Below are positions 2,226 through 43,146 of a DNA stretch of 64,000 nt, piece after piece. Origin of the DNA: Anaerococcus vaginimassiliensis (GTDB lineage: Bacteria > Bacillota > Clostridia > Tissierellales > Peptoniphilaceae). The DNA lies in the NCBI RefSeq assembly GCF_900626155.1, contig NZ_LR130844.1, positions 62,001 through 126,000 of the forward strand, written 5' to 3'. Numbering within the stretch: position 1 is the first letter of the stretch; each line of letters begins with the position of its first letter. The translations under genes were made by a program, and so were the position numbers. Below the pieces are notes generated by a model. That model saw only the letters and a list, made by a program, of their open reading frames with translations, was not told the origin of the DNA and made no database searches.

Positions 2226-2304
2226 TATTCGTAATATTCGAATAAATCTAGGCAACAACCTTGCCTTGTTCAATATTATACCCTTTTTATTAGAAATTAA
2301 TCAA
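2226..2304 (-). promoter_or_regulatory. Promoter and operator-like palindrome of the LEA-like gene
   Basis: On the minus strand a -35 TTGATT (2304-2299) and a perfect -10 TATAAT (2280-2275) are separated by 18 bases. Between the -10 and the ribosome site lies the palindrome TATTCG-N7-CGAATA at 2226-2244, a plausible repressor site in the leader. The regulator is unknown. Confidence 0.5.
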
Positions 2305-2405
2305 TTATAATTATGGTATTTCTGATCTCTAAGGATTTCTCCTACCATATCCCTACCCTTTTGCATTTTCTTGATATTTTTAATATCTAAGATTAAGACA
2401 TTTTA
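2301..2405 (-). pseudogene. In-frame tail beyond the TAA of the HEPN-nuclease gene
   Basis: Reading through the TAA at 2405-2403 in the same frame gives 33 more codons to a TGA at 2303-2301. The encoded peptide starts NVLILDIKNIKKMQ, which looks like the usual last strand and helix of Mrr-type nucleases, where a 'LxDIxNL' element follows the catalytic core. I infer that the TAA may be a recent nonsense change (from AAA, GAA or CAA) and that the intact protein had about 306 residues. It could also be chance. Confidence 0.4.
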
Positions 2406-3221
2406 TCTAACAAGCTCTTTTTTAATATCATCATCCAAATAATTAGAATTAATTATTAATAGAGGTCTAATATCAGAATCAATTCCATGAATTTTATCAA
2501 TCATTTCATATATAAAATCTTTAGTTAGCTTCCTATTGTAGTCATAATTTTTAATCTCTATTGCAAAGCGATTATCATCTTTTTTTGCATATAAATCAAA
2601 TTTATGAGACCTTTGATATTGTTCTTGGAAGGGTTCAATCCAATAACCACACCTTTTAAAAGCTTTAGATATAAATTCTTCACTAGTAAAATCATTATTA
2701 ATTTTTCTTAGTGCTCTTAAAAGTCCACTTGGATTTATCTTAAAAATAGACTTATACTCAGTTTTTTCTCCAAACTTCTTGATGTCAAAACCAATCACCA
2801 AATCATTTATAACATTAAAATTGCCATGAGCTATTGCGTTTCTTATATGTCTTAAAAGGGCCATAGTTTTTGTTTCATCATTATCGGCAAGAGTCATAAT
2901 TAACTTTTGCTCATCTACTCTGACCTTTCCTCTAAAATATTTAACCAAATTCGGTTTTATTTCATCAGTTATAAGAACGTCTTCATCTCTAAGATTCATT
3001 GACATCATAATATCTGTAAATATATAATCATCATAAGCTGGATTTAGAAGCAAGTCATTGTGTTTTGCTTGCTCTGATGATATATTTGGCACATACCACA
3101 AGAGCATTTTAATAGCCTCATCTAAATCTTTGCTTAAATCTATTGGTATATCCTTATGCTTTATAGAAAAATCTTCCATATGTCCTGCTGCATCTATTTT
3201 AAATTTGTTAGTAATATCCAT
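2403..3221 (-). CDS. HEPN + PD-(D/E)XK (Mrr-like) nuclease fusion, possibly truncated
   Basis: 272 residues from the ATG at 3221, which has AAAGG six bases upstream; a longer frame begins at a TTG in the T-tract of the preceding terminator and is rejected. Residues 127-132 read RNAIAH, the R-x4-H signature of HEPN ribonucleases. The C-terminal part has a Mrr/restriction-endonuclease core: FDLY (D209) followed by AIEIK (E222, K224), i.e. D-x(n)-E-x-K. This gives an RNase-type and a DNase-type domain in one chain, an arrangement typical of toxins and anti-phage effectors. It lies directly downstream of the TerB-C/ATPase/helicase operon but has its own promoter. The frame continues for 33 codons past the TAA with plausible protein sequence, so the gene may carry a nonsense mutation. 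Substrate unknown. Confidence 0.65.
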   Translation of the reverse strand: MDITNKFKIDAAGHMEDFSIKHKDIPIDLSKDLDEAIKMLLWYVPNISSEQAKHNDLLLNPAYDDYIFTDIMMSMNLRDEDVLITDEIKPNLVKYFRGKVRVDEQKLIMTLADNDETKTMALLRHIRNAIAHGNFNVINDLVIGFDIKKFGEKTEYKSIFKINPSGLLRALRKINNDFTSEEFISKAFKRCGYWIEPFQEQYQRSHKFDLYAKKDDNRFAIEIKNYDYNRKLTKDFIYEMIDKIHGIDSDIRPLLIINSNYLDDDIKKELVR

Positions 3222-3258
3222 ATTTTGCCTTTCAGTTCTCATCTCATCTTTACCTATA

Positions 3259-3287
3259 AGCATACATCTAGCTTGATCTTTTGTAAA
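3259..3287 (-). promoter_or_regulatory. Promoter of the HEPN-nuclease gene
   Basis: On the minus strand TTTACA (3287-3282), a 17-base spacer and TATGCT (3264-3259) lie about 40 bases upstream of the ATG at 3221. This promoter is downstream of the helicase terminator, so the nuclease is expressed separately from the upstream operon. Confidence 0.55.
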
Positions 3288-3295
3288 ATACAAAT

Positions 3296-3321
3296 TAAAA
3301 AGAGAAGCACTAAGCTTCTCT
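3296..3321 (-). terminator. Rho-independent terminator of the TerB-C/ATPase/helicase operon
   Basis: AGAGAAGC and GCTTCTCT form an 8-bp stem with a 5-base loop, followed by TTTTT on the minus strand. It is 140 bases after the helicase stop; the intervening sequence is AT-rich with no other feature seen. Confidence 0.8.
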
Positions 3322-3460
3322 AAATTCTAGAATGACCATTGATGGAAAACTTGATCTTGAGTTTTGTTATAGGTAATATAAGCCATTCTTATATTTTTCC
3401 TTATAAAAACTTCTCTTTGATTTTACTTTTTCTTTTAACTAATAATATATATATATTATA

Positions 3461-5545
3461 TTATTTATCAAGAAACTCGTACGTTCCATCTAGGTCTAAT
3501 AGATTATTAATTATATATATACTCTTTAACTTTTGAGGTATAAGATTTTTGTATTTGTTATTACTTAAGTAAGAATCAACTTGTTTAGGATTTTTATCCA
3601 AGTGTGATTTTATTTCATCTAGGCTTACCTTTTGTGTAATTATATTTTTTAGGGCTTTTCTTATGTTTTTCCCAATAATAGTTGACGATCTTTCGTCTTG
3701 TTTATAGTTATTGATTGATCTAATATTTAGCATCAGGGTTAGAGTTCTATTTATTTTGCTACCTTTATATGTCCTTAGTCCTTGACCTTTTTCATCGTTT
3801 ATTAGATAAAATCCTCCCTCATCTCCAATATATAAACTGTCTAGAATATTATTTATTTTATCGTTATAAGAGTATTTTTTTCTATCTTTTATAATTTCTT
3901 CCATTTTTTCTCTTATTTCGTTTGAGATGTCTTCACCGCTGTTTGAACCAAAGGAAACTGCCTCCCCTTTTTCTGCCCTTGTTACTAATATTTTTTTAGA
4001 TTTTATATTAATAGTGTCTATTTTCCAAACAAGACCTGATAGATAGATATTATCTCCTTTTTTTAGGTCTAAGTTCTTTTCAATTTCTCCTATTTTCGCT
4101 TTATTTGAATATACGGAAAAGTTATCTGTACTCACAAATTGATTATAAAAAGATCCCATTTTTAAAAGTTTCTCTGCTTCTAAGCCAATTATATATTCAT
4201 CTTCTAGTTTTTCTATAAATGAATTTTCTAACAAATGACTTGTTATTTCGTGAAATTCTTCCTTGTCTATATCAGACAATGCAGATAGTTTAGTGATTAG
4301 ATTATTATAATTATCGTATCTTAGCCCGTTATTTTCTATAAGTTCTGACAAGATTTGGTGAGCAAATATGTCGTAGGGTTTTTTTACTTGACTGATTTTA
4401 TCGAGCTTTCCTTCCTTATAAAGGGATATTGTTGCCAAAGCTTGGAGTAAATCCCAAGGATTGGTAGCTATTTGGTGGAGAATAGATTTGTGAGTTTTTC
4501 TCCCAGATCTACCCAACTTTTGAGCCAAGGATAATACTGAATATGTGGACCCATACTGACAAATAGAGTGAACACTACCTATGTCGATTCCCAATTCTAA
4601 AGTAGATGTGGCACATATAATGAATTTATCTGAGTCTCCTCTCTTGGCAAAATTTTCAATTTCTTTTCTTCTTTGCTTGCTAACAGATGAATGATGAGCG
4701 AATATTTCTGTAGATATTTTTAACTCATCAGCTTTTTTTCTTAAGGATACTGCTAAATTTTCAACATTTTTTCTAGAATTTGGGAAAACAAGCATTGATC
4801 CATCTTGAGAAAATTTTAATATTCTTTCTGTTGTTTCATCTGTTATGGATTCTTCTTCTATATAAGAAATACTTGCTACTAGCTCATTTTTGCTTTGATC
4901 TATCAAGATATTTGTCTCTTTCCCATTATCAAAAAAATCTTTTGCTAGCTTATAGTTTGCATCTCCAATGGTTGCAGATAAGCCTATAAAACGAGGAGTT
5001 TTTTCGGTATATTTAACTATCCTCGTTAACAAACTTTTAAGTTGAACTCCCCTGTTTCCAGACAAAAATCCGTGGATTTCATCTACTATTATATAATCGA
5101 GTCCTCCGAATAATTTATCCAAGTCATTTGCTCTATTTACAAAAAGAGCCTCCAGAGATTCTGGAGTTATAAGAGCTATTCCACTAGGATTAGCTACTAG
5201 CTTATCTTTTTTAGTTTTTGATGCTTCTCCATGCCAGCTCGTTACAGGTATTTCCATGTCTTCACACATTTTCTCAACTCTTTTAAATTGGTCATTTATT
5301 AGAGCAATTAGTGGGGAAATATACAAAATTCTTAGTCCTGATGAAAAATCATTTGCCGTTGATATGGTAGGAAGAAAGGCTGCTTCAGTTTTACCTTGAG
5401 CTGTTGGAGCTACCAAAATCAAGTTGTTATCACTAGTGCAAACTCCTTTTATTGAAGCAGCTTGAATTTTAGTTAGTGATGGCCATTTATTTTTGTATAC
5501 GTATTCTCTCATTGGCCTTGAAAGAAGTGAATAATAATCTGTCAT
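3461..5545 (-). CDS. Lhr-like DEAD/DEAH-box helicase (BrxHI-type) of a TerB-C system
   Basis: 694-residue superfamily 2 helicase. Walker A VAPTAQGKTE is at residues 45-54, motif II is DEIH at 154-157, motif III SAT at 189-191, then a LELGIDIGSVH segment and motif VI GRSGR near 345. The pattern DEIH-x-FLSGNRG and the overall layout resemble Lhr-type helicases, which in BREX and Ter-linked gene clusters pair with a DUF2791 ATPase. The start overlaps the stop of the upstream ATPase gene by 4 bases, implying coupled translation. Likely role (inference): ATP-driven translocase or unwinding motor of a DNA-processing or defence complex. It is the last gene of the operon and is followed by a terminator. 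Confidence 0.85.
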   Translation of the reverse strand: MTDYYSLLSRPMREYVYKNKWPSLTKIQAASIKGVCTSDNNLILVAPTAQGKTEAAFLPTISTANDFSSGLRILYISPLIALINDQFKRVEKMCEDMEIPVTSWHGEASKTKKDKLVANPSGIALITPESLEALFVNRANDLDKLFGGLDYIIVDEIHGFLSGNRGVQLKSLLTRIVKYTEKTPRFIGLSATIGDANYKLAKDFFDNGKETNILIDQSKNELVASISYIEEESITDETTERILKFSQDGSMLVFPNSRKNVENLAVSLRKKADELKISTEIFAHHSSVSKQRRKEIENFAKRGDSDKFIICATSTLELGIDIGSVHSICQYGSTYSVLSLAQKLGRSGRKTHKSILHQIATNPWDLLQALATISLYKEGKLDKISQVKKPYDIFAHQILSELIENNGLRYDNYNNLITKLSALSDIDKEEFHEITSHLLENSFIEKLEDEYIIGLEAEKLLKMGSFYNQFVSTDNFSVYSNKAKIGEIEKNLDLKKGDNIYLSGLVWKIDTINIKSKKILVTRAEKGEAVSFGSNSGEDISNEIREKMEEIIKDRKKYSYNDKINNILDSLYIGDEGGFYLINDEKGQGLRTYKGSKINRTLTLMLNIRSINNYKQDERSSTIIGKNIRKALKNIITQKVSLDEIKSHLDKNPKQVDSYLSNNKYKNLIPQKLKSIYIINNLLDLDGTYEFLDK

Positions 5546-6861
5546 ATCAGTAAAATATCATCTTGATCTAATGGATCTTTTTCTATTGGATCTAGTACAT
5601 TAGAATATTTATCATCAAGGATTTGGTCAACCGTAACATCTGGATTCTGTCTTTTTAAATCCAAAATTTCTAGAAAATCTTTGATAACTGATCTAGGCGT
5701 CAAGAATTCATCTGCTCCAGGTCTGTTCAATTGTCCTTCCATATATCTAATTATTTGATTTTGATTAATATCTATATCTATCTTGTAGTTTGTATTATAA
5801 ATATTTACGAGATTTTCAAGTAAAGTGTATATTTCTTCCTCACTTAGAGGTTTTAGTAAAAGAGCTGTTCTTTTTGTATTTATTAAGGACGAATTGATAT
5901 CTTTTTCATCTCCCAATCTTCCAGAAAGCGCACCATAGGAAGACATTCCTCTGTTTGTATCAAATACAGTTTTTCTTGTTGCACCGAAGTTTACAAAAAG
6001 CCCCTTAGCCTTTCCTGATTTACATTCATTGTAAATATTTAATATTCTCTCATAATTTCTCTCTCTGGTTACCGATTGAGGAATCTTGTAGAGATTTACA
6101 GCTTCATCGAAATTGATAACAAAGCCAGAATAGCCAATAGCCAAAAACAATTCAGCTAAGTTTTTTAGGGCATCAAAATAGTTATCATCGTTAATTATTT
6201 GATTGATGCCAAGCTCTTTTTTCGCTTCAGTTTTGGTAGATATATCTCCCCTTATCCATCTTATAGCTTTTAATTTTAGCATTCTATCATTTTCTACAAA
6301 AGCTTGGTAATATTTGTTAATAGCCTCACCAAACTCAAAGGATAAACCAACAGAAGAAAAACTTGCCATGGCATTTAAAATTTCATTTCTAACTTCTTGC
6401 TTATTAGATCCCTTTAACAAATCTTCCATAGGAATATCATTTTTTTGGGATAAATCAGAGAAAATCCTCATAAGCCACTGATCTATAATTTGCTCTATTA
6501 CGTTTCCTGACCTTGCTGTTTTAGTCTTTATATTGTCTACAATTTCACTATATAAAGCCTGAGCCTTCTTATCCGTCGCATAAAATCTTCTTTGAGGTGC
6601 AAGATCTATTGTAGATGTTACGAAATTTTTCCCTAGGGCAAATTGTTCTATGGTATTTAACATAAAGGATTTGCCTGATCCAAAATCTCCTACCCAAAAT
6701 CTTATGTCACTACCGCCGTTTGACACATCATCGAGCACACCTAAGACTTCTTCAACTTCTTTCTTTCTACCTACTAAAAGATGTTCTATTCCTAGATTTG
6801 GGACAACTCCCCCTTCCAAAGATTTAATAATAACAGCTGCTTGTTTTGGATTAATTTTCAT
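5542..6861 (-). CDS. BrxD/DUF2791-family ATP-binding protein
   Basis: 439 residues with an N-terminal P-loop: WVGDFGSGKSF at about 57-67 and a Walker B-like FVINFDEA around 247-254. The sequence around the P-loop (GxGHLLVGRxxE entry, then a long helical region) matches the DUF2791 family, called BrxD when found in BREX loci, where it stands next to an Lhr-like helicase exactly as here. ATP hydrolysis is expected since both Walker motifs are intact. Its first codons overlap the TerB-C gene by 11 bases and its end overlaps the helicase start by 4, so the three proteins are probably made in fixed ratio. No methyltransferase, PglZ or BrxL of a complete BREX locus is in the window. Confidence 0.85.
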   Translation of the reverse strand: MKINPKQAAVIIKSLEGGVVPNLGIEHLLVGRKKEVEEVLGVLDDVSNGGSDIRFWVGDFGSGKSFMLNTIEQFALGKNFVTSTIDLAPQRRFYATDKKAQALYSEIVDNIKTKTARSGNVIEQIIDQWLMRIFSDLSQKNDIPMEDLLKGSNKQEVRNEILNAMASFSSVGLSFEFGEAINKYYQAFVENDRMLKLKAIRWIRGDISTKTEAKKELGINQIINDDNYFDALKNLAELFLAIGYSGFVINFDEAVNLYKIPQSVTRERNYERILNIYNECKSGKAKGLFVNFGATRKTVFDTNRGMSSYGALSGRLGDEKDINSSLINTKRTALLLKPLSEEEIYTLLENLVNIYNTNYKIDIDINQNQIIRYMEGQLNRPGADEFLTPRSVIKDFLEILDLKRQNPDVTVDQILDDKYSNVLDPIEKDPLDQDDILLI

Positions 6862-8212
6862 CTAATATCTCCTTAACTATATCTATGTAAAACGGATCTA
6901 TAACAACCCTATCATCTTCTATCAATAAACTTTGATCATCTACATAAGGATACAAAGCATCATTTATTTCATTTACAAATACATTTACCATTTGTCCTGA
7001 TTTAAGGGCGATACTCTTAGCTTCTTCAACAGAAACACCATTATTATTTATAATAGTTTCTAAAAAGCTATAAGTTTTATCGTCTAATTTAACTTTATCA
7101 TCACTTTCGGGAGTTGTTTTTTCATCTTCCTTCTCTTCTGTTTTAGTAACCTCACTTTGAGATAAATTTTCTCCACTATCCATAAACTCACTGACTCTTT
7201 CTACAGTAGAGCTTAACTCTTTCCTTGATTTTTTGACCTTATCTTTGTCTATTGTAATTCTTTTAGCTTCTTTTTTATCTAAGTCTAGGAGTCTATCTAT
7301 AAGCTCAATTGACAAGTTATTCTCATTTACAAGGGTTATGAATTTGGGATAATTTTCTTTTAAAATTAGCTTAAATAGCCTATTTTCATCTGCCTTAGTC
7401 ATTTCATTATCCCTGACAAGGTAAAAGAAGCCAAGCATACTTGTAAAGTTAAAATCTGATTTGCTTAAAGTTTTCTTTAATTTTCCTATTTTTTCATCTA
7501 TGATAAATTTATTAGACAAATCAATTTGCTTGATTAGATTTGAATTTTCAATATATCTAGCTATATCATTAACTTTATTGGGATTTTCTAAGAGAAATTC
7601 TTCGTAAATTTCATCTTTACTTCCATGATCTAAATTTAAGTAGAATTCATTCAACTTCTCTGTAAAAAAGTCCAACAAGTCTAGCAAATCATTTTCTTTT
7701 AAAAAAGATAGGTGCTTATCAACATCAATACCAGCAAATATTGTAAATTCACTTCTTAGCCTCTCTTCAGCAATAATCATCAAGGAATCTAGAATATTGG
7801 CTGAAAGTCTGTAGGGTTTTCTATATTTTATGATCTTATCAGTATTTAGGTCACTTCTATTAAATACATCTTCCATTACAGAAAAGTATGATTTAAATAG
7901 TAGGACTTTTGCTTTCTTATATTTCCAAACTTGGTTGTTTCTCTTTGAAACTTCACTAAGGGCATCTTCACTCTCTTTATCGAAGTTATACTCTCTTAAT
8001 AATCTTTGATAATCATCTAATTGTTCTTTTAATTCTAAATTTCCTTTTTTATTTTTCTCTATATTTTTGTTATCAATACTTTTTTCAACTAGTTCTTTTA
8101 TTCTTCCCTTATCTATTCTTCTTTTAAAGGATTTCTTGTGTTCATTTTTGTCAATAGTTGAAATATCTTCTAATAATTCATTTATTAAATCAAATATCCC
8201 TTCAAAATTCAT
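6851..8212 (-). CDS. TerB-C domain protein, first gene of the ATPase/helicase operon
   Basis: 453 residues, highly charged and helical. The last 80 or so residues (about 375-453; LDDKTYSFLETIINNNGVSVEEA, then INDALYPYVDDQ-LLIEDDRVVIDPFY) have the layout of the TerB-C domain found with tellurite-resistance-type and DNA-processing gene clusters. A low-complexity acidic linker (about 330-375) separates it from the N-terminal region, which has no recognised domain but could be a divergent TerB-N-like helical module. Start ATG has GGAGG upstream. Known family context: TerB-C proteins occur with DUF2791 ATPases and Lhr-like helicases in predicted stress or defence systems. Function of this protein itself is unknown. 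Confidence 0.65.
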   Translation of the reverse strand: MNFEGIFDLINELLEDISTIDKNEHKKSFKRRIDKGRIKELVEKSIDNKNIEKNKKGNLELKEQLDDYQRLLREYNFDKESEDALSEVSKRNNQVWKYKKAKVLLFKSYFSVMEDVFNRSDLNTDKIIKYRKPYRLSANILDSLMIIAEERLRSEFTIFAGIDVDKHLSFLKENDLLDLLDFFTEKLNEFYLNLDHGSKDEIYEEFLLENPNKVNDIARYIENSNLIKQIDLSNKFIIDEKIGKLKKTLSKSDFNFTSMLGFFYLVRDNEMTKADENRLFKLILKENYPKFITLVNENNLSIELIDRLLDLDKKEAKRITIDKDKVKKSRKELSSTVERVSEFMDSGENLSQSEVTKTEEKEDEKTTPESDDKVKLDDKTYSFLETIINNNGVSVEEAKSIALKSGQMVNVFVNEINDALYPYVDDQSLLIEDDRVVIDPFYIDIVKEILDEN

Positions 8213-8280: not shown

Positions 8281-8306
8281 AAAAAAGCTAGCAACAAACT
8301 AGCTTT
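8281..8306 (-). terminator. Rho-independent terminator of the fructosamine-kinase-like gene
   Basis: AAAGCTAG and CTAGCTTT form an 8-bp stem followed by T residues on the minus strand. The stem overlaps the stop codon of the upstream gene and separates it from the TerB-C operon. Confidence 0.8.
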
Positions 8307-9171
8307 AATTGATTTTAGACTTATTTATAATTTTTTCAATTTCTATATCTACTGCACTCATATAAGTTTTTCCAAATTTATGCAAATGAATCATAAGCAA
8401 ATATAGTTTGTAAAACTCAAGTCTAAGTATATACCCATCTTCAAGTGGGTATATTTTGTTGTATTCCTGGTAGAAATTCTTATCAAAACCAGAAAACACC
8501 ATGGAAATTCCTATATCAAACTCTCTATCACCAAACAAAGGTGATGGATCAAATATGGCAGGCTCTCCATTTTCTAGGAACATAAAATTACCTGCCCACA
8601 AATCTCCATGAAGAAGTGAAGGTCTACTCTTATGATCATCTAGGGATTTTTCTATGATTTCTCTTACCTTTTTGTAAGTTTCTAATCTCTCCTTGCCCCA
8701 TAGACCATTTTGTGATAATAAATTTGCCAATTTATCCATTCTCTCATTTAGAAAAATCTCTTTCCATGTATCCCTATAGGAATTGGAAAAAGAAATCTTG
8801 GATCCTTCATAGGAATAATCAAAGCCAAACTGACCGTTAGGATTTTCTACCCTATGCATTTTAGCTACTAGCTCAGCTAACTTCCTTTGATCTCCATCAA
8901 AAGCCTCCTCTAGGTATTCTAATAAAAGATAAGAATCATCTCCTACTTTCCCATCATTAATATATCTAGGTGCTCTTATATTATTTTCTTCAAATAACTT
9001 TAGACCCTCGATTTCACCTTGAAAGAAATTTTTTCGAGCATTCTTCTGAATCAAACAAAAATATATACCTTCGTCAGAATAAATCTTGTAAGCTTCGTTT
9101 ACATCTCCTCCGCTTAGTACCCTAACATCGTATATATTTTTAATCGGTAAATTATCAAAAATATCACCCAT
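8305..9171 (-). CDS. Fructosamine kinase family protein
   Basis: 288 residues from ATG 9171 (GAGG eight bases upstream; a GTG at 9180 would be too close to that site). The catalytic motif LLHGDLWAGNFMF followed by PAIFDPSPLFGDREFDIG is diagnostic of fructosamine-3-kinase/ketosamine-3-kinase proteins of the aminoglycoside phosphotransferase fold: HGDLWAGN is the catalytic loop and FDPS the metal-binding aspartate. These enzymes phosphorylate sugar-amine adducts so that the glycation breaks down. Substrate in this organism is not known. It follows marR after 88 bases on the same strand and ends at a terminator, so a two-gene unit controlled by MarR is possible. Confidence 0.88.
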   Translation of the reverse strand: MGDIFDNLPIKNIYDVRVLSGGDVNEAYKIYSDEGIYFCLIQKNARKNFFQGEIEGLKLFEENNIRAPRYINDGKVGDDSYLLLEYLEEAFDGDQRKLAELVAKMHRVENPNGQFGFDYSYEGSKISFSNSYRDTWKEIFLNERMDKLANLLSQNGLWGKERLETYKKVREIIEKSLDDHKSRPSLLHGDLWAGNFMFLENGEPAIFDPSPLFGDREFDIGISMVFSGFDKNFYQEYNKIYPLEDGYILRLEFYKLYLLMIHLHKFGKTYMSAVDIEIEKIINKSKIN

Positions 9172-9259
9172 AGACCTCACCTCGTATGTACAATATTTCT
9201 AGTCTAGCGTAGCTATAGATAAGAAATATTATTTTGTCAAAATCAAATATATTAATATA

Positions 9260-42887: not shown

Positions 42888-43146
42888 CATAGAAAATAAA
42901 CTGTGATAAGAAAAGTAGATTTGACGGACCTACCCAGAGAGACTATGGTTGGTGGAAATAGTTTAGCGAAATCAGATTGAAAATGGCCTTTGAGTTTCTT
43001 ACCTGATATTTAAGGTAAGACGTGTTCGCACGTTATAGCGATAGAGTATGTTGGTACTCGATGAGTTATTAATTGTGAGATTAATTTAAATTTTAGGTGG
43101 TAACACGTGGCAGAGCCTCGTCCTTTATAGGATGGGGCTCTTTTTG
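42888..43146 (+). ncRNA. T-box riboswitch, methionine specifier (AUG)
   Basis: A 260-base leader filling most of the 402-base gap. It contains the T-box AGGTGGTAACACG at 43095-43107 and a terminator AGAGCCTCGTCCT/AGGATGGGGCTCT ending in TTTTT (43112-43145). The stem I region GAAA-ATG-G-CCTTTGAG aligns base for base, from the right, with GAA-TCT-A-CCTTTGAG of the serS T-box in this window, so the specifier is ATG at 42983-42985. Uncharged tRNA-Met would switch on the downstream genes. The remainder of the gap is AT-rich. Confidence 0.88.

Follow-up and report, generated by a model that had tools for sequence, protein, structure and literature searches.

Which system is encoded by three overlapping genes of Anaerococcus vaginimassiliensis, and does the nuclease-like gene next to them belong to it? 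The genes lie in a stretch of 64,000 nucleotides (contig NZ_LR130844.1, positions 62,001 to 126,000), referred to below as the window. The original prediction, made from the letters of the window, described a candidate defence system other than ordinary bacteriophage exclusion (BREX), with a HEPN + PD-(D/E)XK nuclease as the possible effector. We propose that the three genes, sngA, sngB and sngC, are a copy of Shango, and that the HEPN gene is independent of this system; judging from sequence comparison, the probability of this combined reading is about 85%.

Identity of the operon

In a PADLOC scan covering five window proteins, SngA matches the model PDLC03958 at 7e-18 (profile positions 237–527 of 528, that is, the C-terminal part), SngB matches PDLC03959 at 1.7e-142 (residues 2–419 of 439), and SngC matches PDLC03960 at 4.5e-178 (residues 4–692 of 694). 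The three are thus a SngA-type protein, a SngB-type ATPase and a SngC-type DEAD/DEAH helicase. The top BREX scores are 2.6e-44 for SngB against BrxD and 6.3e-117 for SngC against BrxHI. Since for each of the three proteins the Shango model gives the top score, we assign the locus to Shango and not to BREX, and it is almost certainly a copy of this already described anti-phage system. Hence the idea of defence was right, but the system is a known one, which the original prediction did not recognise.

The composition of the operon, predicted as a TerB-C protein, a BrxD-type ATPase with the GDFGSGKS motif and a DEIH-box helicase, agrees with both Pfam and the coordinates of the open reading frames (ORFs). 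The genes are adjacent, in the order A-B-C on one strand, with overlaps of 11 bases between sngA and sngB and 4 bases between sngB and sngC (Table 1). Pfam finds TerB_C in SngA (5.9e-14, residues 312–446), BrxC_BrxD, presumably the former DUF2791, in SngB (1.9e-122), and DEAD (1.1e-30), Helicase_C and WH_Lhr (27.5 bits with the cut-off of 27) in SngC. The SngB motifs GDFGSGKS and FDE, which we take to be Walker A and a Walker B-like motif, are invariant across the 14 rows of alignment A3.

Table 1. Features of the Shango locus and its flanks (window coordinates)
Feature	Position	Strand	Description and basis
sngA	6851..8212	-	TerB-C protein, 453 amino acids, short form; PADLOC, Pfam TerB_C, gap in alignment A1
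sngB	5542..6861	-	BrxC/BrxD-family ATPase; PADLOC, Pfam BrxC_BrxD, motifs invariant in A3
sngC	3461..5545	-	Lhr/BrxHI-type superfamily 2 (SF2) helicase, DEIH box; PADLOC, Pfam
Terminator-like hairpin with T tail, between sngC and the HEPN gene	3301..3321	-	Terminator scan
HEPN (RNAIAH) + Mrr-like gene	2403..3221	-	Neighbour, not counted in Shango; 272 amino acids from the likely ATG, early in-frame stop
Terminator-like hairpin, between the fructosamine kinase gene and sngA	8284..8306	-	Terminator scan
Fructosamine kinase gene	8305..9180	-	Flanking; Pfam Fructosamin_kin 1.7e-73; second flank of the empty site in G027 and G028

According to PMC10250203, the PA14 Shango consists of a TerB-like protein, an ATPase and a helicase and has 10–100-fold plating effects on many phages in P. 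aeruginosa PAO1, and the E. coli Shango modestly inhibits two phages. SngC, BrxHI, DruE and DpdJ are placed in one possible helicase clade in PMC12278908. The window locus shares with Shango its three genes and their arrangement, from the TerB-C protein through the BrxD-like ATPase to the Lhr/BrxHI-like helicase, but differs by its short SngA, in which neither TerB nor TerB_N is detected, by its chromosomal location (the genome is a single contig of 1.84 Mb) and by what looks like mostly vertical inheritance in Anaerococcus. A literature search for Anaerococcus with Shango yields two colorectal-cancer papers, judged unrelated.

Probable independence of the HEPN gene

The HEPN gene is present in all 31 Anaerococcus genomes, both the 19 with Shango and the 12 without, and in 67 of 130 genomes of the family. 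None of the seven Shango genomes from two further genera of the family carries it. In a sample of 391 genomes of the class, the HEPN gene occurs in 11 (E ≤ 1e-10) and SngB or a close BrxD in 31 (E ≤ 1e-40); the two that have both are Anaerococcus. At the named SngB loci, the HEPN gene is found within 9 kb in 10 of 13 cases in Anaerococcus and in none of 40 cases elsewhere, 20 of the latter with shortened flanks. Thus the expected conservation of the four-gene neighbourhood holds inside the genus (19 of 19 Shango genomes) and fails outside it. At 37 loci of other genera the neighbours of the HEPN gene change with the genus; in five of them a tadA-like deaminase gene, named by eye and confirmed as a deaminase by Pfam on one, is directly downstream.

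Because the HEPN gene occurs in every Shango-free Anaerococcus genome, is missing from Shango genomes and from SngB loci elsewhere, and has varying neighbours, we conclude that this gene looks independent and has been passed on mostly vertically. Its presence without Shango, and the reverse, lead us to reject, as the default, the view of it as an obligate Shango partner. The effector role suggested for the nuclease does not agree with this distribution or with the hairpin that separates the gene from sngC, and the gene is probably not the Shango effector. An origin from a mobile element was also considered and found no support: searches of 50,697 phage and 72,556 plasmid records with the window protein give nothing, and no viral contig was confirmed.

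Wherever Shango is present in the genus, the HEPN gene is downstream of sngC on the same strand, at a distance from 3 bp to 9.9 kb, and directly behind it in five genomes only. In the four nearest relatives (G026, G023, G015 and G034) the HEPN start follows sngC after 49, 48, 49 and 3 bp, respectively, and a simple scan finds no terminator in between; because of these short gaps and the absence of a predicted terminator, co-transcription is likely in these four genomes. In the other 14 genomes the gap is 1.7–9.9 kb, and in 11 of them it contains a cassette with a two-component system and a permease of the FtsX type (domains from a scan of one example). The wide distribution of this cassette suggests that the direct adjacency of sngC and the HEPN gene may be a derived state.

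In the window, the terminator postulated after the three genes is indeed seen as a hairpin (Table 1); between positions 1000 and 9500 there are 13 terminator-like sites, compared to 2.8 in shuffled sequences. The separate promoter postulated for the nuclease gene is not borne out, as the number of promoter-like sites, 50, is near chance (40.8, standard deviation 6.0). A sigma-70 site that matches the consensus perfectly (12 of 12, spacer 18) is located antisense inside the HEPN gene, at window positions 2999–3028 on the plus strand, and this exact consensus is not found in the four nearest relatives.

In 16 of 31 Anaerococcus genomes a Macro-domain gene lies close to the HEPN gene, and in nine it is the immediate upstream neighbour (loci L062–L069, L089, L091–L097; Pfam on two). 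A second, more distant HEPN-type match, with 34–36% identity, occurs away from the Shango site in three genomes (G009:C1:616580-617308, G014:C248:384557-385303 and G018:C2:1915581-1916309).

The HEPN protein

The listed ORF of the HEPN gene begins with TTG at 3293, but the homologues begin at a position corresponding to the ATG at 3221, which is the likely start. The window copy ends at an in-frame TAA (2403–2405), and the profile match continues in the same frame to 2313 (window 2313–2405, minus strand). The protein ends 22–38 residues short of 39 aligned relatives, and intact copies are found among the relatives.

No Pfam cut-off is reached by the window protein. Mrr_cat is above the cut-off in three of the four relatives scanned, and the pEK499_p136 HEPN model (PF18736) matches below the cut-off in the window protein and in the four relatives. 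Of the domains named in the original prediction, TerB_C and BrxC_BrxD are found by Pfam in the window, and HEPN and Mrr_cat do not reach the cut-off there. In the HEPN motif, R, N and H are invariant in all 40 sequences. The PD-(D/E)XK residues vary: ExK or DxK in 19 of 40 sequences (ExK in the window), ExR in 16, and other variants in five. The ratio of nonsynonymous to synonymous substitution rates (dN/dS) of the HEPN gene is 0.02–0.09 in eight genome pairs, and is below that of sngA in each of the five pairs having both genes. A search of solved structures yields four weak matches (E 0.03–0.07) to an interferon-inducible GTPase, which we take as chance.

With the pEK499_p136-like HEPN family the gene shares the R-N-x-x-x-H motif and the sub-threshold PF18736 match, but differs by the Mrr-like domain with unconserved catalytic residues, by the genus-wide presence and by the varying surroundings. 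According to PMC3710099, pEK499_p136-like HEPN genes occur in operons with restriction-modification genes, Macro-domain genes and Pgl components.

Distribution and inheritance of Shango

SngB is found in 19 of 31 Anaerococcus genomes and is absent from 12, some of which are incomplete. Shango is also present in seven genomes of the two other genera of the family mentioned above. One of 27 SngB matches (G041, 66 residues, 4.3e-4) was dropped. The order A-B-C is retained at all 13 named Anaerococcus loci, and all three genes are detected by profile search at 27 of the 40 other SngB loci. Each of the five plasmid loci opened has genes annotated as a TerB_N protein, an ATP-binding protein and a DEAD/DEAH helicase, in that order. 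At two of these five, on Sulfitobacter and Paracoccus plasmids (L206 and L208), genes annotated as a PD-(D/E)XK nuclease family protein and a UvrD helicase directly follow Shango. No SngB relative was confirmed in viral contigs.

On the HEPN gene tree of the 31 genomes, used as the reference in place of a core-gene tree, the presence of Shango requires two changes, whereas the shuffled mean is 9.8 and none of 500 shuffles is as low. The SngB+C tree of 19 genomes agrees with the HEPN tree in 12 of 16 splits. Hence Shango looks mostly vertically inherited in Anaerococcus. In five genome pairs dN/dS is 0.03–0.22 for sngA, sngB and sngC, sngA being the highest of the three in all five.

Of the 19 Shango genomes, 15 have the fructosamine kinase gene close to sngA, this side being less constant than the HEPN side. 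In G027 and G028, both without Shango, only 61 bp separate the fructosamine kinase gene from the HEPN gene, and in G030 there is one other gene between them. No Shango remnant is detected at the site in these three genomes (57 SngA, SngB and SngC queries each, best E 0.08). Since Shango is absent from 12 of 31 genomes and has left no remnant at these sites, it is dispensable.

SngA as the variable subunit

At 53 named loci, SngA varies from 438 to 1321 amino acids (50 ORFs, measured by ORF with start codons as they stand), compared to 427–454 amino acids in 50 SngB ORFs. The longest SngA ORF has no Pfam match, and the next, of 1191 amino acids, carries TerB_N and TerB_C. TerB_N (PF13208) is found in six of nine divergent SngA proteins, in one of these below the cut-off, in none of five long-form or neighbouring-genus SngA proteins, and in none of six in another SngA set. 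Since the length and the TerB_N or TM2 content vary while SngB varies little in size, SngA is the variable subunit of Shango. An N-terminal TM2 domain (6.3e-07) is seen in SngA of Peptostreptococcus russellii (L120:6714-9002), one of six scanned; it suggests membrane anchoring of some Shango systems.

Within Anaerococcus, SngA has 453–473 amino acids in the window genome and its four nearest relatives and 556–583 in the other 14 Shango genomes. The short form lacks approximately 110–130 N-terminal residues, which produces a gap of about 130 columns in alignment A1. The five short-SngA genomes form one clade in the SngB+C tree (100/100). When profiles of the Anaerococcus SngA set and of six divergent SngA proteins were compared, the alignment was confined to the TerB-C part, with a probability of 13%, and the search of solved structures gives no match for SngA at E 0.1 and none for SngB at E 0.01.

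Elsewhere in the window, a T-box leader is found at 42894–43128 on the plus strand (Rfam RF00230, 117.5 bits).

Alternative explanations

Several observations weigh against the locus being a Shango copy with an independent neighbour. The window SngA covers just the C-terminal part of its PADLOC profile; Pfam finds TerB_C alone in it and no TerB_N, and TerB (PF05099) has no match in the whole genome. Outside Anaerococcus, 13 of 40 SngB loci are without at least one of the three genes by profile, part of these gaps being due to cut contigs and to divergent SngA recognised by Pfam only. The order is B-C-A at two Ruoffia loci, and the SngA-like gene of Ligilactobacillus salitolerans is on the opposite strand (L121, L122, L124). 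SngB relatives, Shango and BREX being unseparated, are present on 682 plasmid records, therefore the wider family is mobile. Finally, four of the 16 tree splits conflict, several of them well supported, which speaks against strictly vertical descent; exchange of Shango within the genus may have occurred.

If all four genes formed one system, the HEPN+Mrr-like protein would be an effector or a backup abortive-infection ribonuclease (RNase) set off by SngABC. The invariant HEPN residues, the constant position downstream of sngC and the tight arrangement, with no terminator found by a simple scan, in A. marasmi, A. tetradius, the metagenome-assembled genome SUG34 and G023 are consistent with this, and PMC12839542 counts HEPN RNases among the most frequent backup RNases in BREX and related systems. 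However, the gene is also in every Shango-free genome of the genus and in none of the seven Shango genomes of the two other genera, only two class genomes have both, most Shango genomes of the genus have kilobases between sngC and the HEPN gene, and the window copy has both the hairpin and the early stop, which makes such a system quite unlikely. A narrower version would place the change in one clade, where Shango was rebuilt, the N-terminal region of SngA was lost, and the HEPN+Mrr-like gene was recruited as a fourth cistron with an RNase output. The five short-SngA genomes are exactly those with the HEPN gene directly behind sngC; as they form one clade, the coincidence counts as a single event rather than as independent support, and in the window genome the link to sngC looks broken again. 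We consider this version, too, to be quite improbable.

If the operon were what remains of a type 2 BREX system after loss of the rest, this would explain why SngB matches BrxD and SngC matches BrxHI, as the BrxD–BrxHI pair of that system is homologous to SngB and SngC. But the Shango models fit both proteins far better, a TerB-C gene heads the operon, and the trio recurs elsewhere. Type 2 BREX differs from the window locus, which has no PglZ (PF08665 has no match in the whole genome), a TerB-C partner instead, and one BrxC/D-type protein: BrxC beside BrxD is not seen, since the only PF10923 match in the genome is SngB itself. Given its better Shango scores, the operon is rejected as a BREX remnant, which is a very improbable origin, and the claim that the defence system is not ordinary BREX stands. 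It is also quite unlikely, to about the same degree as the four-gene system, that the trio in Anaerococcus has become a Shango-derived motor for DNA repair or replication stress, with phage defence no longer its main role. Such a motor would be consistent with the mostly vertical inheritance and the low dN/dS, with the lack of a confirmed SngB relative in viral contigs and with the neighbours, which are mostly metabolic as named by Pfam or by eye, PADLOC having been applied to just the five window proteins. On the other hand, the trio is dispensable, and sngA has the highest dN/dS of the three genes in five of five pairs, as expected of a defence component.

Implications

In the literature searched, which leaves out most subscription journals, no paper on how Shango works was found. 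BrxD is described in PMC12839542, which mentions neither Shango nor TerB, as an ORC/Cdc6-type ATPase that may load or activate BrxHI. Extending this to Shango, we tentatively suggest, at somewhat less than even odds, that SngB, as an ORC/Cdc6-like AAA+ ATPase, would load the SngC helicase onto phage DNA or replication intermediates, or activate it there, and that SngA, via its TerB-C part, would recruit the SngB–SngC pair or sense the target. The outcome would be a block of phage DNA replication.

The locus shows that adjacency to a defence operon can reflect nothing more than synteny. The variability of SngA makes testing of its contribution practical. Anaerococcus are human-associated anaerobes, and our analysis records Shango as what looks like a long-held chromosomal system in this genus.

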